From NCBI RefSeq assembly GCF_007671725.1, contig NZ_VCNM01000002.1:930001-994000 (forward strand): DNA of 64,000 bases, in the 5' to 3' direction. Position 1 is the first letter of the stretch. The number at the start of each line of letters is the position of its first letter. The stretch comes from Halorubrum depositum. GTDB lineage: Archaea; Halobacteriota; Halobacteria; Halobacteriales; Haloferacaceae. The notes below the pieces were generated by a model. That model did not search any database. It worked only from the letters and a program-made list of their open reading frames with translations, and had not been told where the DNA came from. The translations under genes were made by a program, and so were the position numbers. Shown here one piece after another: positions 14,247-54,050 of the stretch.

Positions 14247-14476
14247 CTATAAACAGATCGCGGTGCGGTGGCGCGATCCGGTGAGCGCCCGCCGGGGCGC
14301 GAACCCGAGCGCGAGGGAGTCGGTGGTCCGGAGCGAAGTGGAGGACCACCGACGAGGCTGGGGAGGAATGAGGTGCGGAGCGGTGGTGGGCGGGACTCAA
14401 AGGGACAGACGCGAGTCCTCGCAACGGGGGTGTTGGCGCCGTTGGACGCCGATCCGAGATCGATTGCTCATAAATG
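14247..14476 (+). repeat. Dispersed structured element, copy A (internally deleted)
   Basis: One of three related noncoding elements. It shares with the others the left box GCGGTGCGGTGGCGCG, then GAGGCTGGGGAGG, GGGACTCAAAGGG and the right box CGATCC, and has AT-rich ends (CTATAAAC and CATAAATG). Its second hairpin has an 11-bp perfect stem, GTCGGTGGTCC pairing with GGACCACCGAC. The first hairpin (GCGCCC/GGGCGC) is flanked by GA on both sides and GGT/ACC. The long arm is nearly gone: left and right arm remnants are joined as GCGAGTCCTCGC. It lies between egsA and the LysE gene in the opposite orientation to both. Confidence 0.85.
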
Positions 14477-19611: not shown

Positions 19612-19910
19612 GTTTATAACTAGTCGACTCCGGATCGTCGGTGAGGACATCCAAAGCCCCAGCCGCGACGACTCGCGTGGCTCGCTGCGCGCTTCAGTCG
19701 CTCGCGTTGCTCGCTCCTTGCAGTGCTTGCGTCGCCAAGCGTCGTCCTCGCGGCTGCCCCTTTGAGTCCCACCCGGCCGCACAGCAACCGCACCTCACGC
19801 CTCCCCAGCCTCGCGGCTCCCTACGGTCGCCGCGTCCCTCGCGCGTGCTCCTCCCGGCCTATCGGCCGCTCGGAGGCACGCGCCACCGCACCGCCGTTTA
19901 TTCATATATA
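19612..19910 (-). repeat. Dispersed structured element, copy B
   Basis: A full-length copy in the minus orientation between aroA and the ArsA gene. Read on the minus strand it runs GGCGGTGCGGTGGCGCG, hairpin 1 (CGGCC-GATA-GGCCG), hairpin 2 (GCGGC/GCCGC), CGAGGCTGGGGAGGCGTGAGG, GGGACTCAAAGGGGCAG, the long arm, GGGGCTTTGGATG and CGACGATCC. The arm CAGCCGCGA pairs with TCGCGGCTG, where copy C has CAGTCGCGA and TCGCGACTG: a compensatory change. The ends are TATATGAATAAAC and GTTATAAAC. No gene is present; short open frames inside are spurious. Confidence 0.85.
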
Positions 19911-53757: not shown

Positions 53758-54050
53758 GTTTATATGAACACAGCGGTGGCGCGCCCCGGTGAGCGGCCCG
53801 GAGGGCCGCGAACCGACGGTGCGAGGGAGTCGGTCGCCGTAGGCGACCGACGAGGCTGGGGAGGCGTGAGGCGCGGTTGCGGTGCGGTCGGGCGGGACTC
53901 AAAGGGGCAGTCGCGAGGCGGTCGCAGGCGACGTAAGCACCGCAGGGAGCGAACGGAGTGAGCGACTGAGGGCACAGCGAGCGTGCGACCGCCTCGCGAC
54001 TGGGGCTTTGGAGGTGTTCGCCGTCGATCCAGTATCAATCATTTATAAGC
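53758..54050 (+). repeat. Dispersed structured element, copy C (full length)
   Basis: A noncoding element between pabC and the Rieske gene. Hairpin 1 is GCGGCCC-GGA-GGGCCGC (53793-53809), flanked by GA on both sides and then GGT/ACC. Hairpin 2 is GTCGGTCGCC-GTA-GGCGACCGAC (53829-53851), perfect. The long arm pairs 53908-53926 with 53984-54002, 19 perfect bases, extended after a GGG/GGG internal loop by CAAAG/CTTTG. The right box CGATCC is followed by ATTTATAA. It has no gene; frames inside are spurious. Copies A and B share all the boxes. Confidence 0.88.

Follow-up and report, generated by a model that had tools for sequence, protein, structure and literature searches.

A family of folded, dispersed intergenic elements in haloarchaeal genomes

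Three intergenic intervals in a 64,000-nucleotide stretch of the Halorubrum depositum genome (here called the window) carry the same sequence boxes in the same order, at 53758-54050 (+), 19612-19910 (-) and 14247-14476 (+). The question they raise is what has been copied: a non-autonomous mobile element, the gene of a structured RNA, or a unit that acts within the DNA itself. The initial annotation had described the order of the boxes, which was borne out in all three copies, and had offered two readings, a PATE- or REP-like derivative of IS200/IS605 transposons and a structured RNA family.

Copies and anatomy of the element

Exact matches to GAGGCTGGGGAGG, GGGACTCAAAGGG and GCGGTGGCGCG in the window are each confined to the three copies. 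Single boxes are weak evidence, as illustrated by GCGGTGGCGCG, which with one mismatch allowed gives 11 matches against 15.8 expected, not above chance. The decisive evidence that the element is real is the ordered pair GAGGCTGGGGAGG...GGGACTCAAAGGG, which has 31 exact matches in the 3.18-Mb genome and none in a reversed control. A covariance model search, which the initial annotation had proposed as a check, yielded 64 copies of the core in this genome (E up to 0.001), exactly three of them in the window. The suggestion of many copies per genome is thus confirmed both by the exact pairs and by the model, and the view that the three copies are not a recent duplication was right. All three belong to the family, but they are not equivalent: the 19612-19910 (-) copy is full, with its hairpin-3 core at 19644-19774 (-) scoring 121.6 bits, whereas the copy at 14247-14476 (+) is decayed, with a truncated hairpin 3 and a core match at 14388-14443 (+) of only 24.7 bits.

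The copy at 53758, read on the + strand throughout, serves as reference. A TATA-like motif, TTTATAT, can be read from the sequence at 53759-53765, 7 nt 5' of box 1, GCGGTGGCGCG (53773-53783), the end of which forms the 5' strand of hairpin 1. Hairpin 1 (53778-53823), which belongs to the Halorubrum-type part of the element, is backed by an RNAalifold consensus in which many pairs carry double changes; it is followed by hairpin 2 (53829-53851), a perfect stem that varies strongly among copies, and by box 2, GAGGCTGGGGAGG (53852-53864). G-tracts 1-3 and box 3 together read GGGCGGGACTCAAAGGGG (53890-53907), GGGN standing directly 5' of box 3, and lie at the start of the class-wide hairpin-3 core module (53890-54018), which shows covariation and is matched by covariance model R1 with 98.8 bits (E 3.5e-19). 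G-tract 4 and the closing strand, GGGGCTTTG (54002-54010), pair with CAAAG, with a compensatory C-G/G-C switch between types. In the 3' tail (54011-54048), 31 nt precede a TTTATAA motif (54042-54048); this spacing recurs in 47 of 60 motif-bearing copies, and a second, tandem tail unit is present in 42 of 88.

The 5' half of a Halorubrum copy accordingly consists of the TATA-like motif, 7-18 nt, GCGGTGGCGCG with hairpin 1, GCGAGGGA, hairpin 2 and GAGGCTGGGGAGG, and the 3' half of a variable G-rich linker, GGGN-GGGACTCAAAGGGG, the long hairpin 3, GGGGCTTTG, 31 nt and TTTATAA. The initial annotation had listed two hairpins, both of which are present; its list missed a third, larger one between GGGACTCAAAGGGG and GGGGCTTTGG. 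This hairpin 3 is the most widely conserved part of the element, with a core of about 110 nt that follows the formula GGGN-GGGACTSAAAGGGG...stem...GGGGCTTTS. SAAAG and CTTTS form its closing helix, a GGG/GGG loop lies beside that helix, and GGGN stands just upstream. From box 1 to the start of the tail, copies measure about 180-460 nt, usually about 250, and are too short for a transposase gene. The left TATA-like motif lies at most 30 nt from the element in 62 of 96 copies from four genomes, at a modal distance of 9-11 nt upstream, compared with 3.5% of control intergenic windows. Inspection of the ends (TATA-like motif/GCGGTGGCGCG against tail/TTTATAA) revealed no terminal inverted repeats, and no clear conserved hairpin was found in the right tail, whereas hairpin 1 lies near the left end.

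Some copies depart from this plan in hairpin 3. A variant with another tip (CCCCTAT...ATATGTC) occurs at L120, L122, L145, L146, L211 and L220, and three of these loci (L122, L145 and L146) also have a repeated 3' strand.

Fold, strand and G-tracts

The predicted fold of the 53758 copy is more stable on the given strand (-156.2 kcal/mol, z -6.46) than on the other (-127.8 kcal/mol, z -5.18). Among 30 class-wide core sequences, 24 of 34 pairs carry double changes and 89.2% of cells are paired, giving a covariation score of 0.492, as compared with 0.151 +/- 0.013 in shuffles, none of which (0/500) reached it. Shuffle tests can be inflated by the relatedness of the sequences; when the structure was slid, a control that retains relatedness, the score dropped to 0.05-0.09. 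The core therefore covaries beyond both its shuffled and its slid controls, as a functional structured RNA would. Double changes also affect 30 of 55 pairs in the full Halorubrum alignment. The closing pair, which in 198 distinct hairpin-3 sequences is G-C in 98, C-G in 95, C-A in 4 and G-T in 1, has undergone a compensatory switch by which the Halorubrum type differs from all others. Over the first nine stem pairs, G.T outnumbers A.C by 54 to 19 (p 5e-5), and this excess, together with the better folding of the given strand, shows that selection acts on one folded strand. That strand is RNA or single-stranded DNA, and the evidence is compatible with either.

These observations bear directly on the main rival to the explanation we prefer, namely a functional structured haloarchaeal RNA that is usually present in few copies but underwent gene amplification in Halorubrum and in some other lineages. 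Such a molecule would act as RNA, for example by being bound by protein through its putative hairpin-quadruplex fold, and we hold it to be a tentative possibility. It is favoured by the heavy compensatory change in a core conserved across the class, by the strand asymmetry of the wobble pairs and by internal loops in the hairpin tip that are short and non-canonical. The position of the left TATA-like motif argues against it: in Halorubrum a mere 7-18 nt separate the end of this motif from box 1, so that by ordinary archaeal spacing a transcript would start inside hairpin 1, and a promoter-driven RNA from this motif is doubtful given so short a distance. A search of Rfam 15 gave no match in the window at the gathering cut-off, and none in the loci of five copies at E up to 1.

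Four G-tracts are conserved (alignment A2), two of which belong to the GGG/GGG loop, and GGGN stands directly 5' of GGGACTSAAAGGGG in 70 of 79 copies that had not been selected for GGGN, against a GGG background of 3.3%. Because haloarchaeal cells are high in potassium, a quadruplex is a natural reading of the four tracts, and their conservation suggests that they may form one. A G-rich hairpin or putative quadruplex could also work at the level of DNA, either in chromosome structure or by starting recombination or gene conversion between dispersed copies, for which the quadruplex at the gonococcal pilin locus offers a comparison in principle. Besides the four G-tracts, this proposal can draw on the replacement of modules at orthologous sites. 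In one shared-site mosaic, hairpin 1 is identical at 51/51 positions beside a hairpin 2 that matches at 24/37; in another, hairpin 3 is identical at 104/104 and hairpin 1 matches at only 17/51, between flanks that are about 92% identical. An identical hairpin 2 accompanies a differing hairpin 1 in 10 of 11 cases, and one Halobellus salinus copy (L229) has a hairpin-3 tip that seems to be flipped in comparison with the remaining copies, as though its two stem arms had recombined. The quadruplex is, however, a prediction from the letters, four-gamete tests for module exchange found no case, and the model does not require the strand asymmetry or the non-canonical loops. Gene conversion is the simplest reading of the mosaics, yet re-insertion could also produce them, and overall we consider an element acting at the DNA level to be quite improbable.

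Distribution and genomic context

The exact Halorubrum form was found in 43 of 391 Halobacteria genomes, only in this genus, at 0-121 copies per Halorubrum genome. A second type, with GGGACTGAAAGGGGC, occurs in 104 of 194 genomes and 41 of 65 genera. In a sample of 148 genomes from the phylum, the core model matched 21 of 24 Halobacteria and none of the non-Halobacteria genomes. Among the matches listed for public genome contigs, nearly all are from Halobacteria; the only non-halobacterial one, on a Bacteroidales contig (L165), is accompanied by no other part of the element and appears to be fortuitous. Records named as Halorubrum carry the exact form, a plasmid of this genus gave a weaker match (75%), and the viral contigs and phages searched gave none. 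Outside Halorubrum the element is often hairpin 3 alone, sometimes in head-to-head pairs. At L158, L161, L192, L218 and L243 such cores are about 30 nt apart, in several cases with a TGATCA-type centre.

This distribution can be read in two ways. It would be unusual for a purely selfish element to have a fold that is conserved throughout a class and yet, in many genera, is present in few copies; this counts against the explanation we prefer. Conversely, a range of 0-121 copies within a single genus is hard to explain by one cellular role. A haloarchaea-wide structured RNA with a hairpin-quadruplex fold, low in copy number in many genera and amplified to more than 100 exact copies in some Halorubrum species, seems to us a tentative possibility. 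By analogy, its amplification might resemble the origin of SINEs from cellular RNA genes, only without a reverse transcriptase.

In a comparison of two genomes, all 34 copies lie between predicted genes, and all four classes of gene orientation occur. Larger samples lean in different directions, the upstream gene being co-directional in 24 of 30 Halorubrum copies and the downstream gene in 30 of 47 non-Halorubrum copies. As all four classes occur and the leans are inconsistent, a UTR or terminator element can be rejected, and the same inconsistency of orientation to neighbouring genes weighs against a cellular RNA. Pointing the other way, the core lies about 70-95 nt after the same gene in three species of one genus (L130, L132 and L133), which suggests vertical inheritance there and is in keeping with an RNA gene.

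The initial annotation had staked its proposal on further copies and on empty sites in related genomes, and unoccupied sites were found alongside the further copies. The aminotransferase-Rieske interval beside the 53758 copy is occupied in four species, and in three others 24-75 nt separate the aligned blocks. Of the 35 copies that genome G153 has within 400 kb, the present genome lacks 17 at the corresponding positions and shares 4. Two other comparisons show most positions shared: 20 of 25 mapped G153 copies with G027 (400 kb), and 11 of 14 mapped copies of this genome with G372 (400 kb, 93% gene identity), the latter implying that movement is not frequent now, a point against the explanation we prefer. 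Intergenic flanks diverge too far between species for a clean empty/occupied junction to be readable in these comparisons, and insertion and its target sequence are therefore matters that we infer. As a measure of purifying selection, 80-nt windows with at least 78 matches were sought; 4 of the 9 elements contained one, as did 13 of the 91 control intergenic regions, which was not decisive. We also observed that in nine Halorubrum loci (L051, L056, L057, L058, L060, L062, L064, L065 and L066) the aminotransferase and Rieske genes are separated by an additional open reading frame, in the place where this genome has the element.

Dispersal is supported by presence and absence at orthologous sites, by the occurrence of all gene orientations, by the lack of visible terminal inverted repeats and by a TTTATAA-like motif at both ends. 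The explanation that we prefer, and to which we assign about an even chance, is an ancient haloarchaeal family of gene-less, non-autonomous dispersed elements, most likely mobile over evolutionary time by means of a trans-acting factor. The unit is a folded single strand with one orientation under selection. In Halorubrum its core is joined by two 5' hairpins and the 31-nt 3' tail ending in TTTATAA, many species have come to possess dozens of copies or more, and the copies are present or absent at orthologous intergenic sites and differ from module to module. A trans-acting factor may recognise the sense strand in its folded state, whether this is RNA or single-stranded DNA; TTTATAA could mark the insertion site or end; the G-tracts might form a quadruplex; and the mosaics may arise by gene conversion between copies through their shared boxes.

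Candidate mobilisers and known systems

No mobiliser emerged from the PF01797, PF00078 and copy-number comparisons, which likewise counts against the preferred explanation. Reverse transcriptase (PF00078) is present in 0 of 52 genomes of the genus, so spread by such an enzyme was rejected and the moving factor is probably not a reverse transcriptase; a SINE-like retroelement, which would depend on one in trans, fits no better. The Y1 transposase (PF01797) occurs in 41 of the 52 genomes, is absent from this nearly complete genome, and does not track the element: Y1 number and copy number are uncorrelated (rho 0.09, p 0.56). Y1 was rejected as mobiliser on that ground, and a Y1 transposase encoded in this genome is probably not the moving factor either.

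The one TnpB gene in this genome, at L031 (G000:C2:654575-654784), has GC-rich palindromes at both ends. Across 13 IS200/IS605-type loci (12 Y1 loci and this TnpB locus) the covariance model found no match, and sequence comparison by blast gave a single weak one, between the hairpin tip and the left palindrome of TnpB (E = 0.003). That resemblance, together with the hairpin near the left end, a length too short for a gene, the lack of visible terminal inverted repeats and the likeness of TTTATAA at both ends to a target or terminal signature, is what would favour a PATE, an IS200/IS605 derivative moved as single-stranded DNA by the Y1 (TnpA) transposase in trans. Set against a nearly complete genome that has no Y1 gene, the uncorrelated numbers and the 13 loci that the model does not match, we judge this unlikely. 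Of the two readings first offered, then, the structured single strand is strongly supported and non-autonomous dispersal is supported, while the link to IS200/IS605, whether of PATE or REP kind, is not supported in view of these same three observations.

PATEs and REPs are nearest to the family in behaviour, but their defining features fail. Like the PATEs of Haloquadratum walsbyi, the element is gene-less and dispersed, shows no terminal inverted repeats, has a palindromic stretch, hairpin 1, near its left end, and forms a heterogeneous family with presence and absence between genomes (PMC3119063). PATEs are defined by palindromes related to IS605-type transposons (PMC3119063), whereas the ends of this element were not found in the IS200/IS605-type loci tested, where the one weak blast match was the only likeness; it is also a much larger structured unit with a class-wide covarying core, and it reaches high copy number without need of Y1. 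Bacterial REPs and BIMEs are likewise high-copy intergenic palindromes, REPs being recognised as a single strand; REPs are, however, 20-50 nt long, are preceded by a GTAG-type tetranucleotide and are accompanied by a Y1-type TnpA-REP (PMC8266576), as opposed to about 250 nt in Halorubrum, other boxes, no GTAG palindrome and no enzyme of the TnpA-REP type, PF01797 being absent from this genome. The TnpB omega-RNAs of haloarchaeal IS200/IS605 elements are similarly structured, with hairpins of GC-rich type, and are tied to mobile elements (PMC12558985), but one TnpB gene stands against 64 copies, and the TnpB locus has no model match. MITEs have transposon-related terminal inverted repeats, of which none were seen here.

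Searches of the open-access literature by sequence strings and by topic returned no description and no name for the family. We regard it as a new haloarchaeal family whose members are folded and dispersed. Within one archaeal class it recurs as an intergenic structure that has evolved with strong compensatory change and lies outside the coverage of Rfam, and it explains dozens of intergenic positions in each genome that are blank in annotations. The alternatives are a new dispersed element and a functional RNA of wide occurrence, and both can be tested in genetically tractable haloarchaea.

Finally, some copies contain extra two-hairpin modules of about 40-65 nt nested within hairpin 3 (L001, L003, L014 and L018) or hairpin 2 (L008 and L009). 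One of these was seen in both orientations, and they resemble small mobile repeats, much as the SMR-A short mobile repeats of Haloquadratum are small units inside the palindromes of other elements (PMC3119063); unlike SMR-A, the main element here has no terminal inverted repeats.
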